A DNA stretch of 37,213 nucleotides from Clostridiaceae bacterium BRH_c20a (GTDB lineage Bacteria > Bacillota > Peptococcia > Peptococcales > BICA1-8). The notes under the pieces were generated by a model, which was not told the origin of the DNA, did not search any database, and was given only the letters and a program-made list of their open reading frames with translations. Below are positions 4,708 through 29,556 of this stretch, one piece after another; the first letter of the stretch is position 1, and each line of letters begins with the position of its first letter. The translations under genes and the position numbers were made by a program. The DNA lies in NCBI GenBank assembly GCA_000961765.1, contig LADT01000063.1, forward strand, positions 1-37,213. Direction: 5' to 3'.

Positions 4708-4711
4708 TTTA

Positions 4712-11446: not shown

Positions 11447-11495
11447 TTTACTCTCCCGCCTTAAATTTCTATGGAAGTTATAGGCGGGGAGTAAA
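11447..11495 (+). promoter_or_regulatory. Intercistronic hairpin between dctP and dctQ (block A)
   Basis: TTTACTCTCCCGCC (11447-11460) pairs with GGCGGGGAGTAAA (11483-11495) with a single bulged base and a 22-base loop. There is no T-run after it, so it looks more like an mRNA processing or stabilising element, or a partial terminator, than a full stop. It starts 8 bases after the dctP stop codon. Confidence 0.65.
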
Positions 11496-11549
11496 ATTAA
11501 CTTAACTATAAAATTTTGCTTATAACTATGGATCATAAGGAGGATGATC

Positions 11550-12081
11550 ATGCTTGCGTTTAAATTAAAAAACTCCAGGTTCTTTACTATTTTAACTAAA
11601 ATTAATAATCTTTGGGAAAAACTCATATCTTCCTTATCAATTTTTGCTGTAATTTTAATGCTTTTTTGTACAATTATTGAAATAACAGCTCGTAATTTAT
11701 TTAAAACATCTTTTATTTGGACTAATGATCTGGCAGTTTTCTCATTTATTTGGATTGCCTTTTTGGGTGCATCAATTGCAGTGCGAACTGATGAGCACTT
11801 TGTTATTGATGTTTTCCCGGAATCATGGAAGAAAAAACAGGGATTTCATTTAAGTTTAAAGTTTTTATCAATATTTTTAGAAATCTTGATTGGTTGGGTG
11901 TTGTTTTATTATGGTGCTGAGTTCGTTAAGATGGCTATTAGCCGAATGTCTTATGCATTAGGGATAAGGGATAAGGCTAAGTTATGTTGTTATTGTAATT
12001 CCCCTATCTGGTATACTAATAATTTTAGCGGCACTTGAACAATTACTTAATGCATTAATATCTGAAAGGGGTGGTGAATAA
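11550..12081 (+). pseudogene. dctQ: TRAP small permease, frameshifted by 7-bp duplication (block A)
   Basis: This is the small four-helix TRAP membrane subunit. ATG 11550 sits 6 bases after AAGGAGG. Family features are clear: TIIEITARNLFKTSF, then FIWIAFLGASIAVRTDEHFVID. After SYALGIR the frame is lost and the read-through ends at 12038 with an unrelated tail. The cause is visible: GGGATAA is present twice in tandem at 11961-11974. Removing one copy restores LGIRLSYVVIVIPLSGILII and a stop at 12079-12081, 1 base before the dctM ATG. The restored protein would have 174 residues, exactly the length of the block B dctQ product. As it stands the last transmembrane helix is missing, so the block A transporter may be inactive. 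A phase-variable switch, a recent mutation or a sequencing artefact are all possible. Confidence 0.85.
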
Positions 12082-12082
12082 G

Positions 12083-13404: not shown

Positions 13405-14934
13405 GTGAGTGGATTAAAAGTTGTTACTGCAAAAGAGGCTGTAAAACTAATAAATAATGGTGATACAATTGCAGTCTGTGGTTGTGAGAACTTGTTGCTA
13501 CCAGAAAAAATTCTAAAGACTTTAGAAGAAAGGTTTTTGAGTACAGGGGAACCTAAAAACTTGACGGAATTCCATACAGTAATTTATGGTATGGGGCAGG
13601 GATTAGGAATGGAAAACTTTGCTCATGAAGGAATGATAAAAAGTAGCATAGGAAGCGGTTTTAGTTATTTGAAAACTTCTCGAATGAGTCAGATGTTAAG
13701 AGAAGATAAAATTCATGCATATGTTTTGCCGATGGGTACAGCATATCAGATGCTGCAAAATATAGCCTCTGGCTTAGAATATACTTTAACACAAGTAGGT
13801 TTAAACACATTTGTTGACCCACGTATAGAGGGTGGATGCATGAATGAGGTCACACCTAATGTTTTTGTGGAAATTGTAGAATTCAAAGGGGAGATTTTCT
13901 TAGGTTATAAAAACCCAAAAATTAACATTTCCATAATCCGAGGTACAACAGCGGACGAAAATGGCAATATTTCTTTAGAAGAAGAACCCGTGAATTTGGG
14001 AGTTTTGTCAATGGCAATGGCTGCAAAGGCATGTGGAGGTAAAGTAATTGCCCAGGTTAAAAGATTGGCGAAATCAGAAACATTACATCCACGTTCGGTA
14101 ATTGTTCCCGGGATCATGGTTGATGCAGTAGTTGTAGATGAAGAACAATCATACTCAGGGGGGAATCTGAATCCAGTGCTTACAGGGGAGATTCGAATGC
14201 CTCTAGCACAATTTGAACCACTGCCTTTGGATGTTAATAAAGTAATTTTGCGGCGGGCTGCGCAGGAGATAGGAGAGATACCTAAAACCATTAATTTAGG
14301 AGTTGGTATACCTGTGGGTATACCAAGGATTATTGTAGAAAATGGTTCTATTGGTGGTTATACTTTTTTCCCAGAACATGGCTCATTGGGTGGAATACCG
14401 GGTGATAGAAGTATCTTTGGAACTAATATTAATCCTGAAGCAATTATTGATCCTACTAATGTGTTTGAATACTACAGAGGTGGAGGCCTTGATATAACAT
14501 TTTTAGGATGTGGTCAATTAGACCGCTATGGAAATGTGAATGTTAGTAAGTTTAATGGTGTTATACCTGGTTGCGGAGGGTTTATTGATATTACTTACTG
14601 TACTCCTAAAATAGTTTTCTGTGGTACCTTTACTTCCGGTGGTTTTAAAGCAGAAGTAAAAAAGGGAACATTAAATATAATTCAAGAGGGAAAGTTCAAA
14701 AAGATAATTCCTGAAGTAGAACAGATTACACTAAGTGGTAAAAATGCTTTAGATAGAGGACAACAAGTTATATATGTAACTGAACGAGCTGTCTTTAAAT
14801 TGGGAACTGAAGGCTTAATATTAATAGAAATAGCACCTGGCGTCGATTTGCAAAAAGATATAATTAATCATATAGAATTCCCTATACATATTTCTCCTAA
14901 TCTAAAATCTATGAATACAGAAATTTTTAAGTAA
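13405..14934 (+). CDS. Family I acyl-CoA:carboxylate CoA-transferase (block A)
   Basis: This 509-residue protein is a fused alpha-beta family I CoA-transferase of the propionate/acetate CoA-transferase type (YdiF/Pct). It moves CoA from an acyl-CoA to an incoming carboxylate through a glutamyl-CoA thioester. The predicted catalytic Glu is residue 324 in FFPEHGSLGGIPG. Other family segments are VCGCENLLLPEKIL near the N-terminus, GGGLDITFLGCGQLDRYGNVN, and the C-terminal ERAVFKLGTEGLILIEIAPGVDLQKDI. The start is GTG 13405 after AGGAGGG. It lies 38 bases after dctM, so the transported acid is probably its substrate. A paralogue is at 22805; there the glutamate context is TIEQGAVGG, closer to the classic motif, so the two may differ in substrate. 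Confidence 0.9.
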   Translation: MSGLKVVTAKEAVKLINNGDTIAVCGCENLLLPEKILKTLEERFLSTGEPKNLTEFHTVIYGMGQGLGMENFAHEGMIKSSIGSGFSYLKTSRMSQMLREDKIHAYVLPMGTAYQMLQNIASGLEYTLTQVGLNTFVDPRIEGGCMNEVTPNVFVEIVEFKGEIFLGYKNPKINISIIRGTTADENGNISLEEEPVNLGVLSMAMAAKACGGKVIAQVKRLAKSETLHPRSVIVPGIMVDAVVVDEEQSYSGGNLNPVLTGEIRMPLAQFEPLPLDVNKVILRRAAQEIGEIPKTINLGVGIPVGIPRIIVENGSIGGYTFFPEHGSLGGIPGDRSIFGTNINPEAIIDPTNVFEYYRGGGLDITFLGCGQLDRYGNVNVSKFNGVIPGCGGFIDITYCTPKIVFCGTFTSGGFKAEVKKGTLNIIQEGKFKKIIPEVEQITLSGKNALDRGQQVIYVTERAVFKLGTEGLILIEIAPGVDLQKDIINHIEFPIHISPNLKSMNTEIFK

Positions 14935-14996: not shown

Positions 14997-16703
14997 ATGA
15001 CTGAATATTTCGAGCATATTACCGATGTGTTAGTAATAGGTGGTGGTGGAGCAGGGGCTAGGGCTGCATTAGAGGCGGCAAAAAATGGAGCTATGGTAAC
15101 TCTTATAGATAAAGGAGTATTTGGTACTTCGGGCTCTACCGCCTATGGAATCGTAGAGACTGCTGGACTTAGTGCCTCAGATGGCCAGGTTGATGAATTT
15201 GATACCCCGGAGGAACATTATAAAGATATCTTAGAAGCTGCACAAGGAACCTGTAGCCCTACTTTAGCTAGGATTGTAGCGGAAGAGGCTCCTCAAGTGA
15301 TAAAAGACTTAGAGGAGATAGGAGTTAATATTGAGCGTGATAGTAAAGGAAAGTATATAGAGGTAAGAGGATGTTTTGCCTCGAAGCCAAGGATGCATAT
15401 AATAAAAAACCACGCTATTCCAATAATTAGAGCATTAGCAAAGGGCTTGGAAAAAGCACAGGTAAAGATTTTGAATAAAACTACTGCAATTGACTTAATT
15501 GTTTATAAAAGTTGTTGTTATGGAGCTTTATGCATAAATGATGAGGGGGAACTAATTTTAATTAAAGCTAAAGCAGTTATTTTGACTACTGGTGGAGCTG
15601 GTCAACTTTTTAAATATAATCAAAATCCAACTGAAATTACTGGTGATGGTTACGGTCTTGGTTGGAGAGCAGGAGCTAAATTAGTTAATATGGAGTTTAT
15701 GCAGGCTGGAGTAGGCATAATACATCCGACAAAGATTTTTTTAAGTGCCTGGATGTGGGAAGGCAAACCAGTTCTTTATAATGATAAGGGTATTAACTTC
15801 TTAACTAAATATATACCTGAAGGTATAACTGAAGAAAGCTGTATACTTGAAAAAAGCAGGCATTTTCCTTTTAGTAGCCGTGACATGTCACGTTATATAG
15901 AAATATCTATACAAAATGAACTTAAAAAGAATCCGCAAAGTAAAGTATTTTTGGACTTAACTAAATCACAAGAATACATCAATAACCTTCCAAAAAAAAG
16001 CGATTTTCATAAAATGTGGGATGTAACAAAGAAATGGATGTTAGATTGTGGATTAGATATTACAGCAAATGCTGCTCAAGTTGCTTGTTTTGGACATGCG
16101 ATTAATGGCGGGTTACTTATCGACGGAAATGGTGAAACCAGTATAAAAAATCTTTTTGCTGCTGGTGAAACTGCGGGTGGGCCCCATGGAGCAGATCGTT
16201 TAGGTGGAAATATGCTTGTAACTTGTCAAATATTCGGGAAAAGGGCAGGAATTAAGGCTGCAAATAATGCAAGAGAAAAAACACTACTAGATATAAATAA
16301 AATTTTTAAATCCAGAATAAACGAAATAATGAATCAAGTACCGAAAATAAATAAACTAGATAAGGATACAGTAAATAGGATGAAGATAAATCTACAAGAT
16401 TTATTTTGGCAAAATTTCCTTGTTACAAAAGATGCAAATTCCTTAAAAAGCTGCATTGAAGGTTTGAATAAAATAAAGGAAGAGTTCACAAAGTCGGATT
16501 TAGGATTGAATAGGGAAAGTTTAGAATTAAGAAATTTAATAGATACTTCTAATATAATGTCTTCAGTTGCTCTAATGCGTGATGAAAGTCGTGGAAGTCA
16601 TTATAGAGAAGATTCCCCATTAACAAAAGCTCAATGGAGCGAAAGCATAACTATTTGGAATAAATACGGGAAAAGTCAGTTTGCAAGGGAAAAACTAGTT
16701 TGA
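14997..16703 (+). CDS. FrdA/SdhA-like FAD flavoprotein (block A)
   Basis: This 568-residue protein of the fumarate reductase/succinate dehydrogenase flavoprotein family has an N-terminal FAD dinucleotide fold (DVLVIGGGGAGARAALEA, residues 9-26). TGDGYGLGWRAGAKLVNMEF, GGPHGADRLGGNM and a late SRGSHYRED follow; in FrdA and SdhA the matching segments hold FAD and the dicarboxylate. It has no signal peptide, no twin-arginine motif and no FMN or heme domain, so it should be soluble and cytoplasmic. No Fe-S (FrdB) or membrane subunit gene is nearby, so it may exchange electrons with ETF or pyridine nucleotide. ATG 14997 has AAAAGGAG upstream. It directly follows a CoA-transferase, as does its paralogue at 24417. 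The reaction, such as reduction or oxidation of a free or CoA-bound acid, is unknown. Confidence 0.85.
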   Translation: MTEYFEHITDVLVIGGGGAGARAALEAAKNGAMVTLIDKGVFGTSGSTAYGIVETAGLSASDGQVDEFDTPEEHYKDILEAAQGTCSPTLARIVAEEAPQVIKDLEEIGVNIERDSKGKYIEVRGCFASKPRMHIIKNHAIPIIRALAKGLEKAQVKILNKTTAIDLIVYKSCCYGALCINDEGELILIKAKAVILTTGGAGQLFKYNQNPTEITGDGYGLGWRAGAKLVNMEFMQAGVGIIHPTKIFLSAWMWEGKPVLYNDKGINFLTKYIPEGITEESCILEKSRHFPFSSRDMSRYIEISIQNELKKNPQSKVFLDLTKSQEYINNLPKKSDFHKMWDVTKKWMLDCGLDITANAAQVACFGHAINGGLLIDGNGETSIKNLFAAGETAGGPHGADRLGGNMLVTCQIFGKRAGIKAANNAREKTLLDINKIFKSRINEIMNQVPKINKLDKDTVNRMKINLQDLFWQNFLVTKDANSLKSCIEGLNKIKEEFTKSDLGLNRESLELRNLIDTSNIMSSVALMRDESRGSHYREDSPLTKAQWSESITIWNKYGKSQFAREKLV

Positions 16704-16943
16704 TGTATTTTGATTTTCTACCTATAATATGATACCTAAGGAAATCTAAATATAAAATTCTCATTTATCTCAATAGATATCTAGGTTTTTTGTAACCGTT
16801 AAGTATTTGTGAACAAATTTTGCTAAATAACCTTTAAAGCATAATATTATATTTCTAAATGATTTTTTCGGCTTGACCCTATTACTATACAGTTTAAATG
16901 AATAACCTCACATTTATGAATTTGTACATTCAGTACATTTGAG

Positions 16944-16985
16944 AAATACCAAAGCCTTGATATTAAAGCTTTGGTATTTTTGATT
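16944..16985 (+). terminator. Terminator after block A
   Basis: AAATACCAAAGC (16944-16955) pairs perfectly with GCTTTGGTATTT (16968-16979), with a 12-base loop and a following T-rich run. It lies 240 bases after the flavoprotein stop and is the only good intrinsic terminator seen before the IS21 relic. Confidence 0.75.
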
Positions 16986-17030
16986 TTTTGAGTTTCACCT
17001 CAAACAAAAATTAAATATTTTTCGATTATA

Positions 17031-17491
17031 CTCATGAATTATTCGGTCAAAATTGCGGTTGTATTGCTGGACCCCTAGTAGTTGGCCCCAATCTCCGGGT
17101 CCTTTATTGGAAGTTATAATAATTGAGATTTGACCCATAGAGTTTGTTATAAGCTGAAAAAACATGTTAGCTTAATTGCTATCCATAGCCATAAACATTA
17201 AATCATCAATAGGTTATAGTTTTTTCAACCCACAACAATTTCTTTAATTGCTGCAACTGTTTTTACTTAGTGATTGTTGCTCGGTTATGTTGAAATTGTC
17301 TGTCGTTCCGGGAAAGCAGCCCATTTAAGCCACTTATCCCGTTGCTTTTAATAGCTCATAATTAATAATTTTATGTAAGAATCCCTGATAGCTAAGCCCC
17401 TTTGTTTGTGCCTTTAACAAAAAGTCATCAAGAACTTTGACCATTTCAAAGTTTTTAATGTACTGGATTTTTTTTTGGTTGTTTCAAACAT
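17031..17491 (-). pseudogene. IS21-family istB relic
   Basis: The minus strand carries decayed but recognisable IstB segments. From a possible ATG at 17491 (with AAAGGGG upstream on the minus strand), a shifted frame reads LDDFLLKAQTKGLSYQGFL, then WAAFPERQTI after a gap with stops, matching the IstB N-terminus. Nearer 17031-17215, DDLMFMAMD, a stop, then ANMFFQLITNSMGQISIIIT, SNKGPGDWG and FDRIIHE match the Walker B to sensor region and C-terminus. The middle part with the Walker A ATP-binding loop is deleted, leaving about 460 of the usual 750 bases. IstB is the ATPase helper of IS21 transposition, so this copy must be dead. An istA tail may precede it (17500-17660, minus strand), but that match is weak. 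Confidence 0.7.
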
Positions 17492-17949
17492 GTATTACCC
17501 CTTTAAGAATAGATTGGTAGGTTTTAATGCCCTAATTTGTGGCTTAGTTTTTAGTTTACTGCGATTCGCTTTATTAGTTTCTTTATCATAAATCACTTAA
17601 TTGGTTTCATCAACTATTACAATAGCAACTTTTTAGAAAAACAATCAAAAATCGACTTAATTCGACAAAAAATTCAGAATATTTTTTTATAGTTAGCAGG
17701 ATTTTAAAAAAAAGGATAGAATAATATAATTTATAAAAGTTCATGATTTTAAACAAGTGTTTCTCTTTTAAAACATGTACGAAATGTAAATGTGCAAATA
17801 AACTTTATATCCATATTTATGTAAATTGTTAAGTTTGATTTCTCTAAGCAAATTCGATTACCCTGTTAGTTAAGAATTGTGGAATAGACGTTTAATTCTG
17901 ATAATAACTAGTAAAATTAATAAAGTTGAATAAAGTCGAAAAATTCAAA
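17492..17949. other. AT-rich stretch without recognisable gene
   Basis: This is DNA between the istB relic and the block B promoter. Every frame is broken by stops. Short near-repeats such as AATCGACTTAATTCGAC (about 17648-17664) and AAAGTTGAATAAAGTCGAA (about 17923-17941) are present. I see no tRNA, riboswitch or intact small gene. Confidence 0.4.
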
Positions 17950-17950
17950 G

Positions 17951-17978
17951 TTAAACTTTTTTTTAATTATTATATAAT
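17951..17978 (+). promoter_or_regulatory. Candidate sigma-A promoter for block B
   Basis: TTAAAC at 17951-17956 and a perfect TATAAT at 17973-17978 are separated by 16 bases in a very T-rich spacer. It is the best promoter-like sequence in the long gap upstream of the block B dctQ, and would give a leader of about 140 bases. Confidence 0.5.
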
Positions 17979-18027
17979 TTAAAAATGTTTAATAGGCTAA
18001 ATATTGAGAAAACTGCAAAGTCTAAAT

Positions 18028-18050
18028 AAGGAGGTATTAAAAAAATGTAA
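18028..18050 (+). promoter_or_regulatory. Near-perfect SD followed by a start-stop (ATG-TAA)
   Basis: AAGGAGGT at 18028-18035 is followed after 9 bases by ATG 18045 and immediately TAA 18048. It lies in the untranslated leader of block B, 77 bases before the dctQ start. Minimal AUG-stop elements can trap ribosomes and affect downstream mRNA; it could also be a relic of a lost gene start. Confidence 0.35.
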
Positions 18051-18126
18051 AATAAATGGTTATTGTAGTTTGAAAAAGATGAATTAATAATTAATAACTA
18101 AGTTGGAGAGACGGAGGCGATGACAG

Positions 18127-18651
18127 ATGAATTTAGAAACCCCGCAAGAGGTGGTGAAGGCAAGTATATTACGGCAATATGTAAACTTAATGGATGTTGT
18201 AAATAAACTTCTAGTTAAACTTATTGGAGTTATGATGTTATTAATGAGCATTTTTGTATTTATTCAAGTTTTTTGCAGATATCTACTCGGATTTACTATT
18301 CCCTGGACCGAGGAGATAGCCCGTTATCTGATGATTTGGAGCACATTTTTAGGCGCATCAGTAGCTATGCGAAGATCGTCATTAATATCTTTGGAAATTT
18401 TTGTTCATTTTACTCCTAAACTAGTATCTAAAATCATTACATTTTCTGCTATTGTAATCTCTTTTGTATTCTTTTTGGTATTAAGTAAGATTGGTTTAGA
18501 AATGATCATTTTGTCAGGTACTGAAACTTCCCCGGTAACAAAATTTCCTATGACCTATGTTTATGCAGCTTTGCCAGTATCAATGGTATTTATGGTATTT
18601 AATGGTATTGTAGTTTTTATAGAAAAATTTTTGCTAAAGGAAGGTGTATAA
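18127..18651 (+). CDS. dctQ: TRAP transporter small permease (block B)
   Basis: This 174-residue membrane protein has four hydrophobic segments. The family core is IFVFIQVFCRYLLGFTIPWT, then EEIARYLMIWSTFLGASVAM, with the conserved Arg and Trp pattern of DctQ subunits. It pairs with DctM to form the TRAP membrane complex. ATG 18127 has GGAGG 8-12 bases upstream; an earlier ATG at 18121 is out of frame. Its stop overlaps the region just before the dctM start (18656). It is the first gene of block B, so here the order is Q-M-P rather than the P-Q-M of block A. Unlike the block A copy it has no frameshift, and the two have equal length once that copy is repaired. Confidence 0.9.
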   Translation: MNLETPQEVVKASILRQYVNLMDVVNKLLVKLIGVMMLLMSIFVFIQVFCRYLLGFTIPWTEEIARYLMIWSTFLGASVAMRRSSLISLEIFVHFTPKLVSKIITFSAIVISFVFFLVLSKIGLEMIILSGTETSPVTKFPMTYVYAALPVSMVFMVFNGIVVFIEKFLLKEGV

Positions 18652-18655
18652 AGAT

Positions 18656-19939
18656 ATGGCATTACCTTTAGTATTTTCTTTATTGATTTTGCTTTTTTTA
18701 AGTGTTCCTGTAGCGTTCTCTCTAGGGCTTTCTGCCATAATAGCTATGAAAATGTCAGGTATGACCTCTATGCTTGCCGTAGTACAATCGATGTTTGCTA
18801 ATATGGATTCCTTTCCCTTAATGGCTGTACCCTTCTTTATGTTGGCAGGTGACTTAATGCAGTGGAGTGGTATTTCTGAAAAATTGATAAATCTGGCAAA
18901 GACAATGGTTGGGCATATACGGGGGGGGTTAGGTGCAGTCTCAGTAGTAACTTCTATGTTTTTTGCTACTTTATCAGGTTCTAGCTCCGCTACTACAGCT
19001 TCTATAGGAAGTATTCTTATCCCAGCCATGGAAAAGGAAGGTTATGACAAAAGATTTGCTGCCGCAATCTGTGCTTCTTCTGGTGAGTTGGGGGTTATTA
19101 TTCCCCCTAGTATATCTATGGTTATTTATGGAATAGCTGCCGGAGTTTCTATAGCCGATCTTTTTTTGGCTGGTTTTATACCAGGGATTCTTATTGGTTT
19201 CACGCTGATTATTACGGTGCATATTATTTCGCGGATTGAAGGTTATGGTGGAAGTGATACTTTCACTTGGAAGGAAAAAATCCGTATCACGTGGGAAGCC
19301 TTACCAGCTTTGGTTATGCCAATTATTATCCTTGGGGGTATCTATGGAGGCATATTTACACCAACTGAAGCTGCAGTGGTAGCTGTTGCGTATGCCTTTT
19401 TAGTAGGGTTGATTAATGGTCAGATTAAGTTTAATAAGGTAATTGATACATTTGGGAAATCAGGTGTATCTATGTCGATAATTTTAATTATAGTTGGAAA
19501 TGCCGCGGGATTTGCTTGGGTAGTTACCAGGGAACAAATTCCTAGTCAAGTTGCTGAATTAATGATTGGTTTATCCGCTAGTCCTATCGTATTTTTGTTA
19601 TTAACTAACTTATTTTTACTTGTTGTTGGTATGTTTATGGAAACTTTGGCGTCTATCTTGATTATTGCTCCAGTATTAGCTCCAATTGCTATCCAGTATG
19701 GGATTAATCCTGTGCATTTCGGTTTAATTATGGTTGTTAACCTGGCTATAGGTATGCTCACGCCACCTGTTGGAGTAAATCTTTTTGTAGCTTGTGCAAT
19801 TGCCAAAATTCGGTTGGATGAAATTATATCACCGCTACTTAAATTTTTATTTATATTAATAGTGGATGTCCTTATTATCTCTTATATTCCTCAACTATCA
19901 CTTTGGTTGCCATCCTTATTTGGCAAGGGCGTCTATTAA
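18656..19939 (+). CDS. dctM: TRAP transporter large permease (block B)
   Basis: This 427-residue polytopic membrane protein of the DctM family has PFFMLAGDLMQWSG, TLSGSSSATTASIGSILIPAM, IIPPSISMVIYG and NLAIGMLTPPVGVNLFVACAIAKI as hallmarks. It is the sodium-coupled translocation subunit of a TRAP transporter. ATG 18656 is preferred over the in-frame GTG 18644, which lies inside dctQ; AAGGAAGG at about 18637 serves it. It sits 4 bases after the dctQ stop and about 90 bases before dctP. A short frame at 19972 with its own ribosome site overlaps the dctP start and could encode a 24-residue peptide, but I have no support for it as a gene. Confidence 0.93.
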   Translation: MALPLVFSLLILLFLSVPVAFSLGLSAIIAMKMSGMTSMLAVVQSMFANMDSFPLMAVPFFMLAGDLMQWSGISEKLINLAKTMVGHIRGGLGAVSVVTSMFFATLSGSSSATTASIGSILIPAMEKEGYDKRFAAAICASSGELGVIIPPSISMVIYGIAAGVSIADLFLAGFIPGILIGFTLIITVHIISRIEGYGGSDTFTWKEKIRITWEALPALVMPIIILGGIYGGIFTPTEAAVVAVAYAFLVGLINGQIKFNKVIDTFGKSGVSMSIILIIVGNAAGFAWVVTREQIPSQVAELMIGLSASPIVFLLLTNLFLLVVGMFMETLASILIIAPVLAPIAIQYGINPVHFGLIMVVNLAIGMLTPPVGVNLFVACAIAKIRLDEIISPLLKFLFILIVDVLIISYIPQLSLWLPSLFGKGVY

Positions 19940-20032
19940 AAAAAAGTTAAGTTTAAAATAGGGGGTGATAAATGAAAATAATTTTGCCCAATCTTAGGTT
20001 TAAAGCCAAAAAAATTGAAAGGGGTTATAACT

Positions 20033-21094
20033 ATGAAAATTGGTAAGTTGAAACTCTTAATTCTATTTACTTTGTTGGTAGCATTAATGGTAACTTTAAC
20101 TGGGTGTGGTGGAGCAGAGAAAAAGGAAGAACCTCCTAAACAAAGTGAACAAAAACAAGAGGAACCTAAACCTCAAGTGAAGGCCAGAAAGTTAAACTAT
20201 GGTATTACTTTGGTCATGGATAACCATTATGGTCTGTTAGGCTTAAAATGGAACGAACTAATAAAACAAAAAACAAATGGAGAACTTGAATTAGCAATGT
20301 TCCCATCTAGCCAATTAGGTGGAGAGGTGCAGATGATTCAGGCTGCTCGTGCTGGTACACAAGATACTTTGGTAACTGCCCAAGCTGTACTAGAAAATAC
20401 AATTCCTGAATGGTCATTGTTTGATGTCCCTTATTTATTTGATAGTGTTGAGCAAGCAAATAAAGTATTAAGTAAAGGTAAAGTGCCTGAAGAGTTCTTG
20501 AAAATGCTGGAACCACATGGGTTAATAGGCTTTGGTTTTCTATCCGTAATGGAGAGAAATGTATTCTCCAATAATCCTATTGAAACAGTAGATGATATGA
20601 AAGGCATGAAAGTAAGGGTAATGCAATCTCCAGGTTATGTTGGGGCGTATAATGCTTTGGGTGCTAGCCCAACTCCAATGGCTTATAACGAAGTGTATGT
20701 AGCTTTACAACAAAAAGTTGTTGACGGTGCAGATACATCTCCTGACCAATTTATGCAAGATAAGTTCGTAGAGGTTGCAAAATATTATAACATAACAAAA
20801 GTACATTATTTACCAGCTGTATTACTTATGGGTCAACCAACTTGGAAAAGCTTAACTCAGGAACAGCAAAAAGCTGTTACAGAGGCTGCTGATGAAGCAT
20901 TAGAATATGCACGTGGAATTTATATGGATCATTATAATAAAGCAATAAAAGATATGCAAGACCGTGGAGTTACAGTAGTGAAGCCTGACCTCACAGAATT
21001 CAAGAAAAAAGCACAACCAGCCGTAGAACAGCTTGTAAAAGATATCCCAAGAGGGCAAGAATTATTCGATATGATTCAAGAAGCTAAAAAGTAA
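20033..21094 (+). CDS. dctP: TRAP transporter substrate-binding lipoprotein (block B)
   Basis: This 353-residue lipoprotein has the signal peptide and lipobox TLTGC (Cys25), followed by a Lys/Glu/Pro-rich linker. The DctP fold is shown by MKGMKVRVMQSPGYVGAYNA, with the carboxylate-binding Arg, and by PMAYNEVYVALQQKVVDGAD. It captures a carboxylate outside the membrane for the DctQM permease just upstream. ATG 20033 has GAAAGGGG at a suitable distance; the TTG at 20015 is upstream of that site. The protein differs clearly from the block A DctP, so the two transporters may take different acids. A GC-rich hairpin follows at 21117-21141, as a hairpin also follows the block A dctP. Confidence 0.93.
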   Translation: MKIGKLKLLILFTLLVALMVTLTGCGGAEKKEEPPKQSEQKQEEPKPQVKARKLNYGITLVMDNHYGLLGLKWNELIKQKTNGELELAMFPSSQLGGEVQMIQAARAGTQDTLVTAQAVLENTIPEWSLFDVPYLFDSVEQANKVLSKGKVPEEFLKMLEPHGLIGFGFLSVMERNVFSNNPIETVDDMKGMKVRVMQSPGYVGAYNALGASPTPMAYNEVYVALQQKVVDGADTSPDQFMQDKFVEVAKYYNITKVHYLPAVLLMGQPTWKSLTQEQQKAVTEAADEALEYARGIYMDHYNKAIKDMQDRGVTVVKPDLTEFKKKAQPAVEQLVKDIPRGQELFDMIQEAKK

Positions 21095-21116
21095 AAAGAA
21101 TATTTAATAATTAACT

Positions 21117-21141
21117 ATTTGGGGGCTATATGCCCCCGAAT
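21117..21141 (+). promoter_or_regulatory. Intercistronic hairpin after dctP (block B)
   Basis: GGGGGC (21121-21126) and GCCCCC (21132-21137) form a tight GC stem with a 5-base loop TATAT, extended by ATTT/GAAT pairing with one wobble. There is no T-run after it. Its place after dctP parallels 11447-11495 and suggests mRNA stabilisation or partial termination. Confidence 0.65.
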
Positions 21142-21164
21142 ATATAAATGGAGGCTATAAAAAC

Positions 21165-21605
21165 ATGAATCCACATATGGATTATCTCAAAATAGGGGAG
21201 ACTGAGTCATTTTCCAAAACAGTGTCAGAATACGATATTTATGCATTTGCTGGAATAGTAGGTGATTTTTATGGAGTTCATTTGAATGAAGAGTACGCTA
21301 AGCAAACTCAGTTTGGTACTAGAATTGCTCAAGGGGCTTTGATGGTAGGTTTTATTGCTACATTAATGGGATATATGGCTGCTAAAGTACCTTCTCCTGG
21401 GGCAGTTTCTTATAGATATGATATTAAATTTAAGGCTCCTGTCTTTATGGGCGACACTATTACATCTAAACTTGTATTAATTGAAAAACAGGAAGAAAGA
21501 AATAGTTGTATCTATGAAGCTACATGTGCAAACCAGAATGGAGTTATAGTAGCGGCTGGACAGACGGTTCTAAAAGTATTAACACCTGATATAGTTAAAG
21601 AATAA
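21165..21605 (+). CDS. MaoC-like enoyl-CoA hydratase, copy 3 (block B)
   Basis: This hot-dog protein of 146 residues has the (R)-hydratase pair Asp34 and His39 in VGDFYGVHLNEEYA. IAQGALMVGFIATLMGY occupies the place of the family IAHG helix, with Gln instead of His. The C-terminal half ends in GQTVLKVLTPDIV. It would hydrate an enoyl-CoA or dehydrate a 3-hydroxyacyl-CoA. ATG 21165 has GGAGG about 10 bases upstream. It lies between the transporter and the first acyl-CoA dehydrogenase of block B. It is clearly more distant from copies 1 and 2 than they are from each other, so it is not a recent duplicate. Confidence 0.85.
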   Translation: MNPHMDYLKIGETESFSKTVSEYDIYAFAGIVGDFYGVHLNEEYAKQTQFGTRIAQGALMVGFIATLMGYMAAKVPSPGAVSYRYDIKFKAPVFMGDTITSKLVLIEKQEERNSCIYEATCANQNGVIVAAGQTVLKVLTPDIVKE

Positions 21606-21632
21606 TTTTTTTTATGATAGGAGGTCTATAAT

Positions 21633-22772
21633 ATGAACTTTGAACTTTCGGAAGAACAATTGATGATACAAAAAATGGCCCGTCGTTTTGCTGAAGAAAA
21701 AATTGCACCTATCGCAGAAAAATCATGGGAAGAAGAGGAATTCCCTTATGATCTTTTTGCACAAATGGGTGAGTTGGGTTTAGTAGGTATTCCCTATCCG
21801 GAGGAGTATAATGGCGGCGGAATGGATGTTTTGACCTTTGCTTTAGTTCTTGAGGAATTGGCACGTATTGATAATTCAGTGGCAAATTCTATAATGGCTA
21901 ATTCATCGTGTGCATCACTAATTAATAATTTTGGAACTACTGAACATAAAGAAAAATATTTGGCACCAATTCTTGCTGGAGAGAAAATTGGAGCAATTGG
22001 TTTGACTGAACCTAATGCAGGTAGTGATGCGGCAGCAATCCAAACAACAGCTGTTTTAAATGGTGATGAATGGATTATAAATGGAAGTAAAATCTTTATA
22101 ACTAATTCCGGGACAGATATAACTTGGCCAGTAGTAATTGCTGCTGTCACTGGAACAGGTGAAAAAAAAGAAATTAGCAATTTTATCGTTTCTAGTGGAA
22201 CTCCAGGGTTTAACATTAGTAAAAAATTTAAAAAAATTGGGTGGAGGGCTTCTGATACAAGGGAACTGAGTTTTGATGACTGTCGAATTCCTGCAGAAAA
22301 CCTTTTGGGTAAACGAGGAGAAGGTCTGAAACAGACTCTTTCTACAATAAATACCGGACGAATCTTAATTGCTTCCATGGCTGTAGGTTTAGCTCAAGGA
22401 GTACTGGATGCTTGCTTAGACTATGTTAAAGGAAGATTTGCTTTTGGTAAACCAATAGGTAAATTTCAAACTATTCAGCATAAATTAGCAGATATGGCTA
22501 CTAAGACAGAAATAGCTAGAGTTATGGTGCATAAAGCGGCGGTTTTAAGGGATTCCGGGAAACCTTTTTCTAAAGAAGCATCTATGGCTAAGCTTTTTGC
22601 AACAGAAATGGCAATGGAAGCTGCTCACCAGGGAATCCAAATTCACGGTGGTTATGGAATAATGACTGAATACGCTGTATCTAGATATTTCGGTGATGCA
22701 AAAGTATTAGAAATTGTTGAGGGTACTTCTGAAATTCAACGCACAGTTATAGCTCGTCAGTTAGGCTTATAA
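21633..22772 (+). CDS. Acyl-CoA dehydrogenase 1 (block B)
   Basis: This 379-residue FAD enzyme of the acyl-CoA dehydrogenase family inserts, or in reverse removes, an alpha-beta double bond in an acyl-CoA, passing electrons to ETF. Family features are LTEPNAGSDAAA (FAD binding), FGKPIGKFQTIQHKLADMAT, IQIHGGYGIMTEYAVSRYFGDAKV and the C-terminal catalytic loop IVEGTSEIQ with Glu363 as the predicted base. The length is typical of short- and branched-chain enzymes. ATG 21633 follows TAGGAGG at good spacing, 27 bases after the MaoC stop. etfBA at the end of the operon are the likely electron partner. A second, different acyl-CoA dehydrogenase lies at 26162. Confidence 0.93.
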   Translation: MNFELSEEQLMIQKMARRFAEEKIAPIAEKSWEEEEFPYDLFAQMGELGLVGIPYPEEYNGGGMDVLTFALVLEELARIDNSVANSIMANSSCASLINNFGTTEHKEKYLAPILAGEKIGAIGLTEPNAGSDAAAIQTTAVLNGDEWIINGSKIFITNSGTDITWPVVIAAVTGTGEKKEISNFIVSSGTPGFNISKKFKKIGWRASDTRELSFDDCRIPAENLLGKRGEGLKQTLSTINTGRILIASMAVGLAQGVLDACLDYVKGRFAFGKPIGKFQTIQHKLADMATKTEIARVMVHKAAVLRDSGKPFSKEASMAKLFATEMAMEAAHQGIQIHGGYGIMTEYAVSRYFGDAKVLEIVEGTSEIQRTVIARQLGL

Positions 22773-22804
22773 TCAAGGTATTTACGAGAAAGGGGTAATT
22801 GAGA

Positions 22805-24373
22805 ATGGCTCCGAAATTTATTAGTGCTAAAGATGCGGCAGTGTTTATAAAAGATGAATGTGTACTCTGGATTGAAGGAAGCAGTGGAGGATTGAATGAG
22901 CCTGGTGCTTTATATGAGGCTGTATCTAAAAGATTTGAAGAAGATGGACATCCCAAGGACATTACACTAGTGCATAGTAATGGTATTGGTGATAGCAAGG
23001 GATTAGGTACTGATCTTTTTGCCAGAGAAGGATTAGTGAAATGCTGTATAGGTGGTCATTATGGTTTTGCTAATCAAATGGTTAAAATGATCAATGAAAA
23101 TAAACTAGAAGCTTATAATATTCCGCAAGGTGTAATAGCGCAATTAGCCAGAGAAATTGCATCGGGTCGCCCAGGACTAATTACTCATGTAGGGTTACAT
23201 ACTTTTGTAGACCCGAGAATTACAGGAGGGGCTTTAAATAGCATCTCAAAAAGAAAATTAGTAGAAGTAATAGACGTTAAAGGTAAAGAATACCTTTTTT
23301 ATCCTTCTTTCTCTATTGATGTAGTTTTTGTCAGAGGCACTTCTGCTGATGAGGATGGAAATATAAGTATGGAGGATGAAGTTTCTTATTTGAATATGTT
23401 AGCTGCTGCTCAAGCTGGTCATAATTGCGGAGGCATTGTTATAGCTCAGGTTAAGCGCAAAGTAAAAAAGGGTTCTTTAGATGCTAGACTTGTTAAAATA
23501 CCTGGTATTTTAGTAGATTATGTTGTTGTTGAGGAAAAACAGTGGCAAAGTTTTGTCGGTGAATATAATCCTGCCCTTTGTGGCGCTGCAAAGGTTGTAA
23601 TCGCGTCCACTATTGAAAGAGAATTAAGTGAACGCAAAATTGTTGCACGTAGAGCAGCAATGGAATTAATTCCTGGGGTAATTAATTTAGGTTTTGGTAT
23701 GTCCTCAGAAGTGGCAAGTGTTGCTGCTGAGGAAGGTTTAGCTGAAGATATTGTACTAACTATTGAACAAGGTGCTGTGGGAGGAGTTCCAGCTAGTGGA
23801 TTGATTTTTGGGTGTGCTATGAATCCGCAGGCAATTATCGACCAGCCAAACCAGTTTGATTTTTATGATGGTGGAGGCATCGATGTAACATTTTTAGGTC
23901 TAGCCCAAGCAGATCAATATGGTAATGTTAATGTAAGTAAATTTGGGTCAAGGATTGCTGGTGCCGGAGGATTTATCAATATAACTCAGGGCGCTAAATC
24001 TATTGTATATTGTGGTACTTTTACAGCAGGTGGATTAAAAATTGCCATAGAGGATGGAAAATTAAAAATACTAAATGAAGGAAAAATCAAAAAATTTGTT
24101 AGCCAAGTTGAACATATTACTTTTAGTGGTCAATTTGCACAAACGAGAAACACACCTGTACTATATGTCACAGAAAGAGCTGTTTTTGAATTAACTCCTG
24201 AAGGTGTGACCTTAATTGAAATTGCTCCTGGTATTGATTTGGAAAAAGATATTCTGGCAAATATGGAATTCATACCGGAAATTGCTAAGGATTTAAAAGA
24301 AATGAATCCTAGGATTTTCATGTCTGAAGTAATGGGAATTAAGGATATTATTTTGAATAAACAAAAGAAATAA
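22805..24373 (+). CDS. Family I acyl-CoA:carboxylate CoA-transferase (block B)
   Basis: This 522-residue fused alpha-beta CoA-transferase resembles propionate CoA-transferase and acetate/acetoacetate YdiF. The predicted catalytic Glu321 lies in TIEQGAVGGVPASG, close to the classic EaGavGG motif. GGGIDVTFLGLAQADQYGNVN and ERAVFELTPEGVTLIEIAPGIDL also match the family. It would activate the imported acid at the expense of another acyl-CoA, saving ATP. ATG 22805 is preferred to TTG 22799, since AAAGGGG at 22789-22795 then has 9-base spacing. It is followed within about 45 bases by an FrdA-like flavoprotein, the same pairing as in block A. The block A paralogue differs at the active-site loop (PEHGSLGG). 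Confidence 0.91.
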   Translation: MAPKFISAKDAAVFIKDECVLWIEGSSGGLNEPGALYEAVSKRFEEDGHPKDITLVHSNGIGDSKGLGTDLFAREGLVKCCIGGHYGFANQMVKMINENKLEAYNIPQGVIAQLAREIASGRPGLITHVGLHTFVDPRITGGALNSISKRKLVEVIDVKGKEYLFYPSFSIDVVFVRGTSADEDGNISMEDEVSYLNMLAAAQAGHNCGGIVIAQVKRKVKKGSLDARLVKIPGILVDYVVVEEKQWQSFVGEYNPALCGAAKVVIASTIERELSERKIVARRAAMELIPGVINLGFGMSSEVASVAAEEGLAEDIVLTIEQGAVGGVPASGLIFGCAMNPQAIIDQPNQFDFYDGGGIDVTFLGLAQADQYGNVNVSKFGSRIAGAGGFINITQGAKSIVYCGTFTAGGLKIAIEDGKLKILNEGKIKKFVSQVEHITFSGQFAQTRNTPVLYVTERAVFELTPEGVTLIEIAPGIDLEKDILANMEFIPEIAKDLKEMNPRIFMSEVMGIKDIILNKQKK

Positions 24374-24416
24374 AACATATATTCTAAATTGCTCTAAATA
24401 TGAAGGGAGTACTAAT

Positions 24417-26138
24417 ATGAGTGCAACTTATCAAACAGATGTGTTAGTTATTGGTTCTGGTGGTGCAGGCTGTCGTGCTGCTTTGGAGGCCTTTAGAGCC
24501 GGTGCGGATGTTATTATTGTAGCTAAAGGTGCTTTTGGGAAAAGCGGAACCACTGCCTTTAGAGTAGCTGACACTGCAGGTTATAATTTTGCAGATGGTA
24601 TTGTTGATCCTAACGATAGCCCAGAAATACACTACCAAGACATAATTAAAGCCGGCCTTGGTATGACCTATGAGGAGCTAGCTAAGATTTTAAGTGAAGA
24701 AGCAATGGAAACAGGGCCCTATTTAGAAGGATTAGGAGTTGAATTTCAAAAGGATCCCTCTACTGGACGCTATATTGAAGTTCGGGGTTGTTTCTCTACA
24801 AAACCTCGTATGCACGTATTAAAGGATCATGGAGAACCGATAATTAAGGCTTTAGAAAAGGAGATTAATGGTCATCCAATTAAAATTCATGAACATACGA
24901 TGATTACTAAGTTACTTGTATCTAATGGTACTTGTTTTGGCGCTGTTGGTTTAGACAAGGAAGGTGAACCAGTAGTTTTCCAAGCTAAGACAGTGATTAT
25001 TGCTGCTGGTGGAGCGGGCCAACTTTTTAAATATACTCTTACACCACCGGATATAACAGGTGATGGTTATGCTTTAGGTTTAAGTGCCGGAGCTGACTTA
25101 GTTAATATGGAATATATGCAAGTAGTTGTAGGAACCGTAAATCCAACTAAAAATCAGCTAAACGCATTTTTATGGTGTGCTAGACCCAAATTATTGAATG
25201 GTTCTGAGGAAGAGTTCTTAGGTAATTATCTTCCAGAGGGAATGACTGAAGACATGGTAATGGAAGCAAAGTCAACCCACTTTCCTTTTAGTACACGAGA
25301 TAACTCAAGGTTTATAGAGATAGCAATTCAGAAAGAAATTCTGGAAGGTCGTGGCACTGCTCAGAGTGGAGTATATGTAGATTTAACAGGAATTAATGAT
25401 GAAGTTGTAAATACTTTGCCTGATGATAGTCCTTTACCTAAAGTATGGCCAATAGTTAAAGAGTTTATGGCGCAAAGAGGTTTTAAAATCGAGACTGAAC
25501 CTATTCAGGTTGGTTGTTTTGCACATGCGATAAATGGAGGCTTAAAAATCGATGAATGGGGTCGCACGACAATATCCGGTTTATATGCTGCTGGTGAAGT
25601 GGCAGGAGGGCCACATGGTGCGGATCGTTTAGGCGGTAATATGCTTTTAACATGCCAAGTCTATGGGGCTAGAGCCGGCAAGGATGCTGCTTTAAAAGCA
25701 GACAGGAGTTCCTATAATCAAATACCTGAAGAACAGGTTAAAATAGAAATAGCTAGATTGCTAAAGATGAGTGGCGGAGAAGGTATGCAAAAAACAGATG
25801 AACTTAAAGCCCGACTACAGGATGCAATGTGGAAGGGAGTATTGGTTGTTAGAAGTGAAGAAAGTCTTAACAAAACTTTAGACGAATTAAAAAGTCTAAG
25901 AGAAGAAATTAATAATAGCTCCATCGCTAGCAAAGATGCGGTTAAAGCTACATTAGAGTTAGAGAACCTTATCGATATAGGTGAAGTTATTACAAGGGTG
26001 GCCCTTTTTCGGCGGGAGACCCGTGGTAGCCATTATCGAGAAGACTACCCAGAAATTGACCCAAAATGGGAAACTAAGCTTTTAGTTAGAAAAAATAGTG
26101 AAACAGGACTAGTAATTATTAAAGAAAATCAAAGTTAA
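24417..26138 (+). CDS. FrdA/SdhA-like FAD flavoprotein (block B)
   Basis: This 573-residue flavoprotein is a paralogue of the one at 14997. The FAD fold is DVLVIGSGGAGCRAALEAFR near the N-terminus, followed by GKSGTTAFRVADTAG, TGDGYALGLSAGADLVNMEY, GGPHGADRLGGNMLLTCQ and TRGSHYREDYPEIDP. It lacks a signal peptide, heme-binding CxxCH motifs, an FMN domain and a neighbouring Fe-S subunit, so it is expected to be soluble. Comparable single-subunit proteins include L-aspartate oxidase, but the succinimide-like LASNSL segment of that enzyme is replaced here by LGGNML. ATG 24417 follows AAGGGAG. Its position between a CoA-transferase and an acyl-CoA dehydrogenase suggests a redox step on the same substrate; the exact reaction is unknown. 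Confidence 0.86.
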   Translation: MSATYQTDVLVIGSGGAGCRAALEAFRAGADVIIVAKGAFGKSGTTAFRVADTAGYNFADGIVDPNDSPEIHYQDIIKAGLGMTYEELAKILSEEAMETGPYLEGLGVEFQKDPSTGRYIEVRGCFSTKPRMHVLKDHGEPIIKALEKEINGHPIKIHEHTMITKLLVSNGTCFGAVGLDKEGEPVVFQAKTVIIAAGGAGQLFKYTLTPPDITGDGYALGLSAGADLVNMEYMQVVVGTVNPTKNQLNAFLWCARPKLLNGSEEEFLGNYLPEGMTEDMVMEAKSTHFPFSTRDNSRFIEIAIQKEILEGRGTAQSGVYVDLTGINDEVVNTLPDDSPLPKVWPIVKEFMAQRGFKIETEPIQVGCFAHAINGGLKIDEWGRTTISGLYAAGEVAGGPHGADRLGGNMLLTCQVYGARAGKDAALKADRSSYNQIPEEQVKIEIARLLKMSGGEGMQKTDELKARLQDAMWKGVLVVRSEESLNKTLDELKSLREEINNSSIASKDAVKATLELENLIDIGEVITRVALFRRETRGSHYREDYPEIDPKWETKLLVRKNSETGLVIIKENQS

Positions 26139-26161: not shown

Positions 26162-27304
26162 ATGAATTTCAATTTAAACGAAGAACAAAAAATGATTCGT
26201 GATATGGTTAGGCATTTTGCGGAAAACGAAATCAAACCTGTTGCAGATCAACTAGATCGGTCGGGGGAATTCCCTACAGAAATTATGAAGAAGTTATCTG
26301 AACTTGGGGTACTAGGTATACCCATTCCTGAAGAATATGGTGGCATAGGGTCAAGCTTCTTAAGTTATATAGTCGCTATTGAAGAATTGTCCCGTGCTTG
26401 TGCATCTACAGGTGTAATAGTTGAAACACATACATCATTAGGTTCGGAACCTATTCTAGATTTTGGAACTGAAGAACAAAAAAGAAAATATCTACCTCGC
26501 TTGGCAAGTGGACAGATTATTGGATCTTTTGGTTTAACGGAGTCAAATGCAGGGTCTGATGCAGCAGGAATGCAGACTTTTGCAGTTATAGATGGTGACG
26601 ATTATGTGATTAACGGGTCCAAGATATTTATTTCCAATGCAGGTATTGCTGATCTTACCATTCTTTTTGCGAAAACTGATAAAGAAAAAGGTGTTAAAGG
26701 TATCAGTGCATTTATTGTTGAAAAAAACACTCTCGGCTATATCGTTGGACCTCCTGAGGACAAATTAGGTATAAGAGCATCACAAACCTGTGCTTTAACA
26801 TTTGAGGATATGCGTATTCCTAGGGAAAACTTACTCGGAAAAGTTAATGAAGGTTTTAAAATTGCTATGCATACTTTAGATGGTGGTAGAATCGCTATTG
26901 CTGCCCAAGCCCTTGGAATAGCTCAAGCTGCTTTTGAAGCTGCTTCAGAATACTCTAAACAGCGTGTTCAATTTGGTCAGCCTATTGGTAAACTGCAAGG
27001 TATTCAGTGGCACATTGCTGATATGGCAACTGAAATTCAGGCTGCCCGTTTATTAACCTACCAAGCTGCTTGGTTAAAGGACCAAGGGTTAAGATACACT
27101 AAAGAAGCTGCTATGGCAAAACTTTTTGCATCAGAGGCTGCAAGTAGATTTACATCTAGAGCTATACAAGTTCATGGCGGCTATGGGTTTATGATGGAAT
27201 ACCCTGTACAAAGACATTACCGAGATGCTAAAATCACAGAAATTTATGAAGGTACTTCAGAAATTCAACGCATGGTAATTGCTAATAACGTTTTATTTAG
27301 ATAG
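26162..27304 (+). CDS. Acyl-CoA dehydrogenase 2 (block B)
   Basis: This is a 380-residue FAD-dependent acyl-CoA dehydrogenase. Key segments are FGLTESNAGSDAAG, VINGSKIFISNAGIADLTIL, FGQPIGKLQGIQWHIADMAT, IQVHGGYGFMMEYPVQRHYRDAKI and IYEGTSEIQR with Glu363 as the predicted catalytic base. This is the arrangement of butyryl-CoA and crotonobetainyl-CoA-type enzymes. AAAAGGAGG lies about 7 bases before ATG 26162. It is immediately followed by a gamma-carbonic-anhydrase-like gene, a crotonase and etfBA, so it probably works with that ETF. Whether it oxidises acyl-CoA or reduces enoyl-CoA cannot be read from the sequence; in an anaerobe either direction is possible. Confidence 0.93.
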   Translation: MNFNLNEEQKMIRDMVRHFAENEIKPVADQLDRSGEFPTEIMKKLSELGVLGIPIPEEYGGIGSSFLSYIVAIEELSRACASTGVIVETHTSLGSEPILDFGTEEQKRKYLPRLASGQIIGSFGLTESNAGSDAAGMQTFAVIDGDDYVINGSKIFISNAGIADLTILFAKTDKEKGVKGISAFIVEKNTLGYIVGPPEDKLGIRASQTCALTFEDMRIPRENLLGKVNEGFKIAMHTLDGGRIAIAAQALGIAQAAFEAASEYSKQRVQFGQPIGKLQGIQWHIADMATEIQAARLLTYQAAWLKDQGLRYTKEAAMAKLFASEAASRFTSRAIQVHGGYGFMMEYPVQRHYRDAKITEIYEGTSEIQRMVIANNVLFR

Positions 27305-27348
27305 GAAGAATGGAAGTTTTTAATCGAGTATAAGGAGTGACAATTGAA

Positions 27349-27861
27349 TTGAGATACAATGCAAAAGGAAAAATTCCAAAGATTTCAGAAGAGGCTATGG
27401 TGGTCGATGGTGCTTGTATTACCGGGGATGTGGAAGTTGGAGCGAAAACAACTATTTGGTATAACGCAGTAATTAGAGGGGATTTTGCTCCAATAAAAAT
27501 TGGAAGAGAAACCAGTATACAGGATTGTGTGGTAATTCATGGTGATCCAGGTGGCAGTGTTTCAGTTGGAGATCGCGTTACTTTGGGGCACGGTGCAGTA
27601 CTACATGGTTGTATTATAGAAGATGATGTAGTAATTGGGATGAATGCAGTAGTGCTTGATGAGGCAGTTGTAGAGAAAGGAAGTATTATCGGAGCAAACT
27701 CACTAGTTCGACGTGGACAACACATACAGGCGGGGGTCATAGCTGTAGGTAACCCGGTCAAGGTTATACGTTCACTTACAGAAGAAGAGAAGCAAGGTAT
27801 CCAAAAAGGTGTAGAACTGTATGTCGGTCTGATAAAACAATACAGCTCCTTAGAAGAGTAG
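27349..27861 (+). CDS. Gamma-carbonic-anhydrase-like hexapeptide protein (CaiE/PaaY-like)
   Basis: This 170-residue left-handed beta-helix protein has repeated hexapeptides, for example VEVGAKTTIWYNAVIRGD and IEDDVVIGMNAVVLDEAVVE. The three metal-binding histidines of gamma carbonic anhydrases are present: His64 in VIHGD, and His81 and His86 in LGHGAVLHGC. Relatives in acyl-CoA operons are CaiE (carnitine) and PaaY (phenylacetate); PaaY is reported to hydrolyse CoA thioesters. A repair or thioesterase role, or bicarbonate supply, is therefore possible. The start is uncertain: TTG 27349 gives 11-base spacing from AAGGAG (27332-27337), while GTG 27337 overlaps that site. The gene is embedded between an acyl-CoA dehydrogenase and a crotonase, both in the same direction. 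Confidence 0.85.
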   Translation: MRYNAKGKIPKISEEAMVVDGACITGDVEVGAKTTIWYNAVIRGDFAPIKIGRETSIQDCVVIHGDPGGSVSVGDRVTLGHGAVLHGCIIEDDVVIGMNAVVLDEAVVEKGSIIGANSLVRRGQHIQAGVIAVGNPVKVIRSLTEEEKQGIQKGVELYVGLIKQYSSLEE

Positions 27862-29510: not shown

Positions 29511-29556
29511 ATAATGTATAGAATTAATTAAAATTTAATAAGGAGGTTGTAGAGAT

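Follow-up and report, generated by a model that had tools for sequence, protein, structure and literature searches.

The window considered here is the whole 37,213-nucleotide stretch of contig LADT01000063.1 from Clostridiaceae bacterium BRH_c20a (assembly GCA_000961765.1). It encodes two flavoproteins resembling FrdA, the flavoprotein subunit of fumarate reductase, designated P0001 and P0002, which share 46% identity. Each gene lies directly behind a gene for a type I coenzyme A (CoA)-transferase, the start of P0001 being 62 nucleotides past the stop of the transferase gene 13405-14934 and that of P0002 43 nucleotides past the stop of 22799-24373. An original prediction, made from the letters of the DNA, presented both as soluble proteins devoid of a FrdB partner, membrane anchor, heme, flavin mononucleotide (FMN) domain and export signal, and this description holds. 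Both proteins are full-length, and in each Pfam recognizes the flavin adenine dinucleotide (FAD) domain FAD_binding_2 and Succ_DH_flav_C; no FMN domain, heme domain or separate NAD(P)-binding domain is detected in either protein. Since the FAD-binding motif begins about 8-10 residues from the N-terminus, there is no space for an export signal, and the window harbors neither a FrdB gene nor a membrane anchor gene. NADH, which had been considered as a direct donor, finds no support, there being no separate NAD-binding domain.

A FrdA-fold family apart from its characterized relatives

The best curated models for both proteins are those of fumarate reductase, succinate dehydrogenase and L-aspartate oxidase, and one annotated relative is named just "FAD-binding protein". 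The top NCBIfam model is TfrA (NF004900), with 310 bits for P0001 and 379 for P0002 against a cut-off of 718, while the L-aspartate oxidase (NadB) model TIGR00551 matches most of the length with 244 and 251 bits, respectively (cut-off 452.75). Both proteins stay well under every curated FrdA, SdhA, NadB and TfrA cut-off. In a sequence search of the PDB, the closest solved proteins are Mycobacterium Sdh1 and L-aspartate oxidase. An AlphaFold model of P0002, built on 30 family sequences (pLDDT 90.5), matches E. coli FrdA (1kf6) best, with a Z of 51.6 and a root-mean-square deviation (rmsd) of 3.2 A over 542 residues, followed by Sdh1, SdhA and NadB (Z 46.8 for the latter); flavocytochrome c is matched with a Z of 35-36 over about 370 residues.

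In the tree, the family stands apart from the FrdA, SdhA, NadB and TfrA references. P0001 and P0002 belong to a supported clade of eight rows (96/90) together with members from Desulfotruncus, Halalkalibacter, Ammoniphilus and Methylomirabilota, and a TfrA-type sequence (L064) with an adjoining FrdB-like gene lies outside the family clade. No conclusion rests on the long-branch rows L014, L019, L051 (first copy), L062 and L067. No characterized family member was found in the tree, the PDB search or the open-access literature. The idea of a distinct subgroup without FrdB, tied to CoA-transferases and devoid of an assigned role, therefore stands, and the scores place it in no characterized oxidase clade. 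Classification of P0001 and P0002 as NadB, TfrA, SdhA/FrdA or flavocytochrome c was rejected, as neither scores nor residues fit. Their fold and superfamily are known, their active site is altered and their metabolic role is not yet assigned.

Regarding the active site, residues were mapped in one family-wide alignment of 48 members with E. coli FrdA, SdhA and NadB, and FrdA numbering is used below. In FrdA and FccA structures, H355 and R390 hold one carboxylate of the substrate; in FrdA, the other is held by H232, T244 and E245. The equivalents of H355 and R390 are invariant (48/48), whereas those of H232, T244 and E245 are each kept in none of the 48 members. The dicarboxylate/FAD motif reported to be kept is thus kept only in part: HGADRLGGN can be found in both window proteins, as can the H355/R390 half and the R287 equivalent, but the H232/T244/E245 half is lost, and with it the fumarate-like site that had been assumed. 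Because this loss extends throughout the family, its site is not a dicarboxylate site. As one carboxylate anchor persists but the fumarate-specific half is missing, the natural substrates would be monocarboxylates bearing a polar tail.

R287, the proton shuttle or donor, is present in the FrdA, SdhA, NadB and TfrA-type rows. In the family, its column holds Ser in 27 members, Arg in 13 (including R295 of P0001 and R294 of P0002), Tyr in four, Ala in two and Glu in two. On the tree, the position must have changed about ten times, and relatives of the window proteins in the same supported clade (L020-L023) carry Tyr. As the R287 equivalent is lost in most members, oxidation of an alcohol next to the carboxylate (C-OH to C=O) fits better than reduction of a C=C bond; P0001 and P0002 keep the Arg, so chemistry at Calpha-Cbeta is still open for them. 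At the column of His44, which binds FAD covalently in FrdA and SdhA, the window pair has Tyr50 and Phe48 and NadB has Tyr, while His occurs in 17 of the 48 members and is seen in a Pseudomonadota clade (e.g., L025, L028, L031). A covalent flavin, and with it a different redox potential, is possible in these aerobic relatives, judging from this residue.

Gene company of the family

Strong matches to the family were obtained in three of 60 related genomes and six of 398 genomes of the phylum, so it is not common. An alignment-guided scan of species genomes gave 50 loci, most of which belong to the family, spread over Bacillota, Pseudomonadota, Spirochaetota, Planctomycetota, Synergistota and Methylomirabilota. 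For the sample of 47 family loci, the neighboring open reading frames (ORFs) within about 10 kb were clustered and each locus was re-read by tblastn. A CoA-transferase can be found in 40 of the 47 neighborhoods, those of P0001 and P0002 included; it is of type I in 23 and of type III (CaiB/BaiF) in 18, including one locus with both types. The transferase was originally said always to stand directly before the flavoprotein, which is true of both window copies but of only about 20 of the 47 loci, where the gene directly upstream on the same strand encodes a type I transferase (15) or CaiB (5). MaoC is found near 32 loci, the enoyl-CoA hydratase/isomerase family (ECH) near 24, a tripartite ATP-independent periplasmic (TRAP) importer near about 22 and sugar-acid catabolic genes near 28. 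FrdB is near none of the 47. EtfBA, encoding electron transfer flavoprotein (ETF), is near three, each of which also has acyl-CoA dehydrogenases able to use it; given this rarity and co-occurrence, ETF as a general partner is not supported.

Twenty non-family FAD_binding_2 loci from the window genome and related genomes served as the control. CoA-transferase, MaoC and sugar-acid genes are near none of them, and FrdB/SdhB is near seven. For CoA-transferases (40/47 vs 0/20), Fisher's test gives p = 1.5e-11, and 3.7e-9 once the sequences are thinned to <75% identity; both values are to be taken as a guide only because the control loci are not matched for taxon. The window genome encodes three type I CoA-transferases, two of which are those directly upstream of P0001 and P0002. 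On both counts, the pairing of transferase and flavoprotein does not arise by chance. Type I and type III CoA-transferases are not homologous, and type III takes the place of type I in 17-18 loci, the two alternating even inside the clade of P0001 and P0002; it therefore seems to be CoA-transferase activity that is selected, not one hitch-hiking gene pair.

The genes accompanying the flavoprotein are diverse. In Desulfallas, Desulfotruncus and Pseudoflavonifractor loci, 2-keto-3-deoxygluconate (KDG) kinase and 2-keto-3-deoxy-6-phosphogluconate (KDPG) aldolase genes lie 3' of it. In Pseudomonadota, it is followed either by a gene of the dihydrodipicolinate synthase (DHDPS) family with a dioxovalerate-type aldehyde dehydrogenase gene, or by AraD1 (GguC, 538 bits, cut-off 340). 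Other loci display IlvD- and UxaA-type dehydratases, mandelate-racemase-type enzymes, GH88, LacI regulators and ribose- or maltose-type ABC importers. On an annotated Agrobacterium pusense plasmid, the order is ABC importer, amidase, short-chain dehydrogenase/reductase (SDR), CoA-transferase, FAD-binding protein, araD1, aldehyde dehydrogenase, MFS and MaoC. This operon and other compact ones, e.g., MaoC-CoA-transferase-flavoprotein-AraD1 (L060), have no classical sugar-acid dehydratase, and some contain nothing beyond transporter, CoA-transferase, flavoprotein and MaoC. Four unrelated kinds of downstream enzymes, namely KDG kinase, KDPG aldolase, the DHDPS family and AraD1/FAH, share 2-keto-3-deoxy acids as substrate class. 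Their convergence on this flavoprotein family, together with operons lacking the classical dehydratase, is the best clue to the substrate class, probably a sugar-type acid, although in the window itself this clue is weaker. The 2-keto-3-deoxy-acid context and the substitution of type III for type I transferases go beyond the original prediction.

Elsewhere in the genome, the sole FrdB-type (PF13085) gene lies on another contig (C13:11989), right behind a further FrdA-like gene (C13:10229) whose product is a genuine SdhA/FrdA distinct from P0001 and P0002. The only FrdB thus belongs to a different flavoprotein, and nothing indicates that such a gene co-evolves with the family. The KDG kinase and KDPG aldolase pair of the genome is likewise on another contig, C69 (L108, 822-10925), in a cluster with aldehyde:ferredoxin-oxidoreductase-like, TRAP, D-threonine-aldolase-like, D-amino-acid-transaminase-like and RidA-like genes. 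Apart from the kinase and the aldolase, these were named by eye; the cluster looks like one for the catabolism of an amino sugar acid.

The window operons

The genes of both units are listed in Table 1. The DctP of the first unit (10387-11439) is related to solved sialic-acid/TRAP binding proteins; that of the second is encoded at 20015-21094, and the PDB matches of both DctP are too broad to name a ligand.

Table 1. Genes of the two flavoprotein units in the window, with the matches on which each name is based.
Feature	Position	Strand	Length	Basis and remarks
MaoC-like hydratase/dehydratase, first unit	9810-10373	+		PF01575, 82 bits
TRAP transporter DctP, DctQ, DctM, first unit	10387-13366	+		clusters with DctP/DctQ/DctM families
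Type I CoA-transferase directly 5' of P0001	13405-14934	+		PF01144, YdiF-like; FadX-like 363 bits, cut-off 750
P0001, soluble FrdA-fold FAD protein	14997-16703	+	568 aa	PF00890 + PF02910; keeps R295, H367, R401
TRAP transporter DctQ, DctM, DctP, second unit	18127-21094	+		family clustering; DctP best PDB matches 4pdd, 4p47
MaoC-like hydratase/dehydratase	21165-21605	+		PDB relatives are (R)-specific enoyl-CoA hydratases
Acyl-CoA dehydrogenase, acryloyl-CoA-reductase-like	21633-22772	+		NF042972 424 bits, under cut-off 640
Type I CoA-transferase directly 5' of P0002	22799-24373	+		PF01144; E. coli YdiF structure 2ahu, 486 bits
P0002, soluble FrdA-fold FAD protein	24417-26138	+	573 aa	PF00890 + PF02910; keeps R294, H370, R404
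Second acyl-CoA dehydrogenase	26162-27304	+		family of 21633-22772
Hexapeptide protein, gamma-carbonic-anhydrase/CaiE-like	27337-27861	+		PF00132
Enoyl-CoA hydratase/isomerase family	27880-28668	+		PF00378, 200 bits
EtfB and EtfA	28725-30546	+		sequence; families shared with Halalkalibacter loci L021/L022
Iron-containing alcohol dehydrogenase	32342-33484	+		PF00465 + PF25137; present in related Halalkalibacter cluster too
IclR-type regulator	33563-34354	+		clusters with IclR family near 12/47 family loci

Between EtfA and the iron-containing alcohol dehydrogenase, a protein of the ornithine cyclodeaminase/mu-crystallin family is encoded (31338-32321), which is odd in an operon of acyl-CoA type. 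Upstream of the first unit, positions 2263-5659 harbor a glycyl radical enzyme (814 aa; active-site stretch NPCGCVETN) with its activating enzyme. It falls under every equivalog cut-off (CutC 714 vs 1050), but is very close to the solved structure 8id1 (1260 bits, deposited as formate C-acetyltransferase), followed by 8iof (962 bits). Shortly after the activase lies a gene for a pyrroline-5-carboxylate-reductase-like protein (5840-6619; PRK06476, 240 bits vs cut-off 254), possibly a hydroxyproline-type or other imine reductase. An SDR gene at 7865-8650 is split over three reading frames, as a pseudogene or through an assembly error; its relatives are the SDRs adjoining the family members L026, L054 and L057.

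The 1.4 kb between both units (16703-18127) hold no intact ORF, and minus-strand frames resemble, by eye, a decayed IstB-type (IS21 helper) gene, a remnant that suggests an old insertion between them. On the minus strand at 34582-36156, a probable transposase was recognized by eye, without PHROGs match; it would be a further mobile element, here bordering the cluster. The ORF at 36342-37213, cut by the end of the window, shares a distant 26% with a 2-oxoacid:ferredoxin-oxidoreductase-type protein in L064.

Candidate chemistry and comparison with known systems

Considering the active site and the gene company together, it can be proposed, tentatively, that P0001 and P0002 are cytosolic single-subunit FAD oxidoreductases of a sugar-type hydroxy monocarboxylate, working in a module of transporter, CoA-transferase, flavoprotein and MaoC; this is the favored explanation, although far from assured. 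The TRAP importer would take up an acid of aldonic or saccharinic type, which the CoA-transferase, the flavoprotein and the MaoC hydratase/dehydratase would then process. In many relatives the product may join 2-keto-3-deoxy-acid catabolism via KDG kinase and KDPG aldolase, or alternatively via a DHDPS/AraD1-type dehydratase and a 2,5-dioxovalerate-type dehydrogenase. In the flavoprotein, the invariant His/Arg pair (H370/R404 in P0002) would bind the free carboxylate of the substrate, much as the FrdA pair binds one carboxylate of its own, and hydride would be exchanged between flavin N5 and a nearby carbon, C2 or C3. The loss of H232/T244/E245 would remove the pocket for a second carboxylate and free space for a hydroxylated chain. 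With no dedicated partner conserved across the family, electrons would probably pass to a general acceptor, which may be ETF, quinone or O2 according to the host. ETF is plausible as acceptor for P0002, whose operon has EtfBA, but not for the family.

Several points weigh against this proposal. The need for CoA activation of an aldonate has no explanation in it. The only gene of 2-keto-3-deoxy-acid type by the window operons belongs to the DHDPS family and lies 7 kb upstream of P0001; the operons contain no KDG kinase or KDPG aldolase, the pair of the genome being elsewhere in an amino-acid-like cluster. The second operon, with two acyl-CoA dehydrogenases, ECH and EtfBA, resembles acyl-CoA metabolism. 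Finally, the control loci were drawn from relatives of the window genome and so represent other taxa than the family sample.

A bolder extension of the favored explanation, possible though held with real doubt, is that the module forms a new CoA-thioester route for sugar-type acids, in which CoA-transferase, a FrdA-fold flavoprotein with a one-carboxylate pocket and MaoC would make 2-keto-3-deoxy acids from acids that ordinary sugar-acid dehydratases cannot use, in aerobes and strict anaerobes alike, the flavin perhaps working without external electron acceptor. No description of the gene set was found in the open-access literature, which mostly excludes subscription journals, including that on isosaccharinic acid, 4-O-methylglucuronate and FAD sugar-acid dehydrogenases. 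The closest precedent for a CoA-activated sugar acid is deoxyribonate catabolism in Klebsiella, the available part of that account mentioning no FrdA-like protein (PMC6365646).

Among the alternatives, the one that survives best, while still unlikely, is that the window pair are enoate reductases, in which case a free alpha,beta-unsaturated acid or its CoA ester would be reduced via EtfBA as an electron sink of fermentation. It is consistent with the R287 equivalent and the His/Arg carboxylate pair kept in both proteins, with EtfBA and the acryloyl-CoA-reductase-like dehydrogenases in the second operon, and with Tyr/Phe in place of the covalent-FAD His, as in L-aspartate oxidase. However, the rare EtfBA of the relatives always has acyl-CoA dehydrogenases beside it, the first window unit is without Etf, and Tyr replaces the Arg in close relatives from the supported clade of the window pair.

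It is improbable, albeit in line with the absence of a conserved electron carrier among the neighbors, whether the host is aerobic or anaerobic (FrdB 0/47, Etf 3/47), that the flavoproteins are redox-neutral, FAD briefly oxidizing the substrate for epimerization or elimination and then returning the hydride with no electron partner. FAD is the only cofactor domain in P0001 and P0002, and compact operons reduced to transporter, CoA-transferase, flavoprotein and MaoC would suit such a reaction. Yet we know of no redox-neutral precedent in the FrdA/NadB fold, and NadB, which uses O2 or fumarate, also does without a gene-linked electron partner.

An even less credible possibility is that the flavoproteins oxidize amino or imino acids, as L-aspartate oxidase does. 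The NadB fold ranks among the nearest and the NadB models cover most of the length, and pyrroline-5-carboxylate-reductase-like and ornithine-cyclodeaminase-like genes can be found in the window region; but the NadB score is far under its cut-off, the columns of NadB H244, T259 and E260 no longer hold those residues, and the neighbors are CoA and sugar-acid genes. That P0001 and P0002 are ordinary complex II flavoproteins with FrdB encoded elsewhere is very unlikely and was rejected, for in spite of the shared fold and the kept C-terminal domain, the dicarboxylate site is lost, the single PF13085 gene adjoins the other FrdA-like gene, and no family locus has FrdB.

Separately, hydroxyproline catabolism, suggested by DHDPS with an aldehyde dehydrogenase and a FAD enzyme and by the pyrroline-5-carboxylate-reductase-like gene of the window, was set aside because KDG kinase, KDPG aldolase, IlvD, LacI, sugar ABC importers and GH88 as neighbors do not fit it.

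The family, spread over several phyla, has retained one half of an intensively studied active site and lost the other, and its neighbors point to sugar-acid rather than fumarate chemistry. Should the favored explanation be true, many annotations would be corrected and sugar-acid catabolism would gain a branch. The family would also offer a natural test of which residues of the FrdA fold set substrate and direction, as the R287 position varies within it.

With regard to known systems, the family shares with E. coli FrdA and SdhA the whole fold, the FAD domain, the C-terminal helical domain and H355/R390, as well as R287 in the window pair. It differs from them in having no FrdB or anchor, in the loss of H232/T244/E245, in its CoA-transferase and sugar-acid neighbors, in the missing covalent-FAD His of the window pair and in the Ser, Tyr, Ala or Glu that most relatives have for R287. 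Like NadB, P0001 and P0002 are soluble FAD-only proteins without FrdB that carry Tyr/Phe at the flavinylation position; unlike NadB, the family has lost the Asp-binding H244/T259/E260 and is accompanied by CoA and sugar-acid genes, and the two window proteins score far under the cut-off. TfrA, the thiol:fumarate reductase (PRK06263), provides the top NCBIfam model, but P0001 and P0002 reach about half of its cut-off and are without TfrB. The FAD_binding_2 domain is common to urocanate reductase and the flavocytochrome c fumarate reductases, whereas FMN-bind, heme domain and export signal are absent from P0001 and P0002, which have an extra Succ_DH_flav_C. The partner CoA-transferase of the flavoproteins is similar to E. 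coli YdiF. Lastly, the ECH, acyl-CoA dehydrogenase, Etf and CaiE-like genes of the window recall the CoA-cycling reduction of carnitine by the cai system, in which the flavoprotein has no counterpart, while many family loci combine CaiB/BaiF with enzymes of 2-keto-3-deoxy acids.

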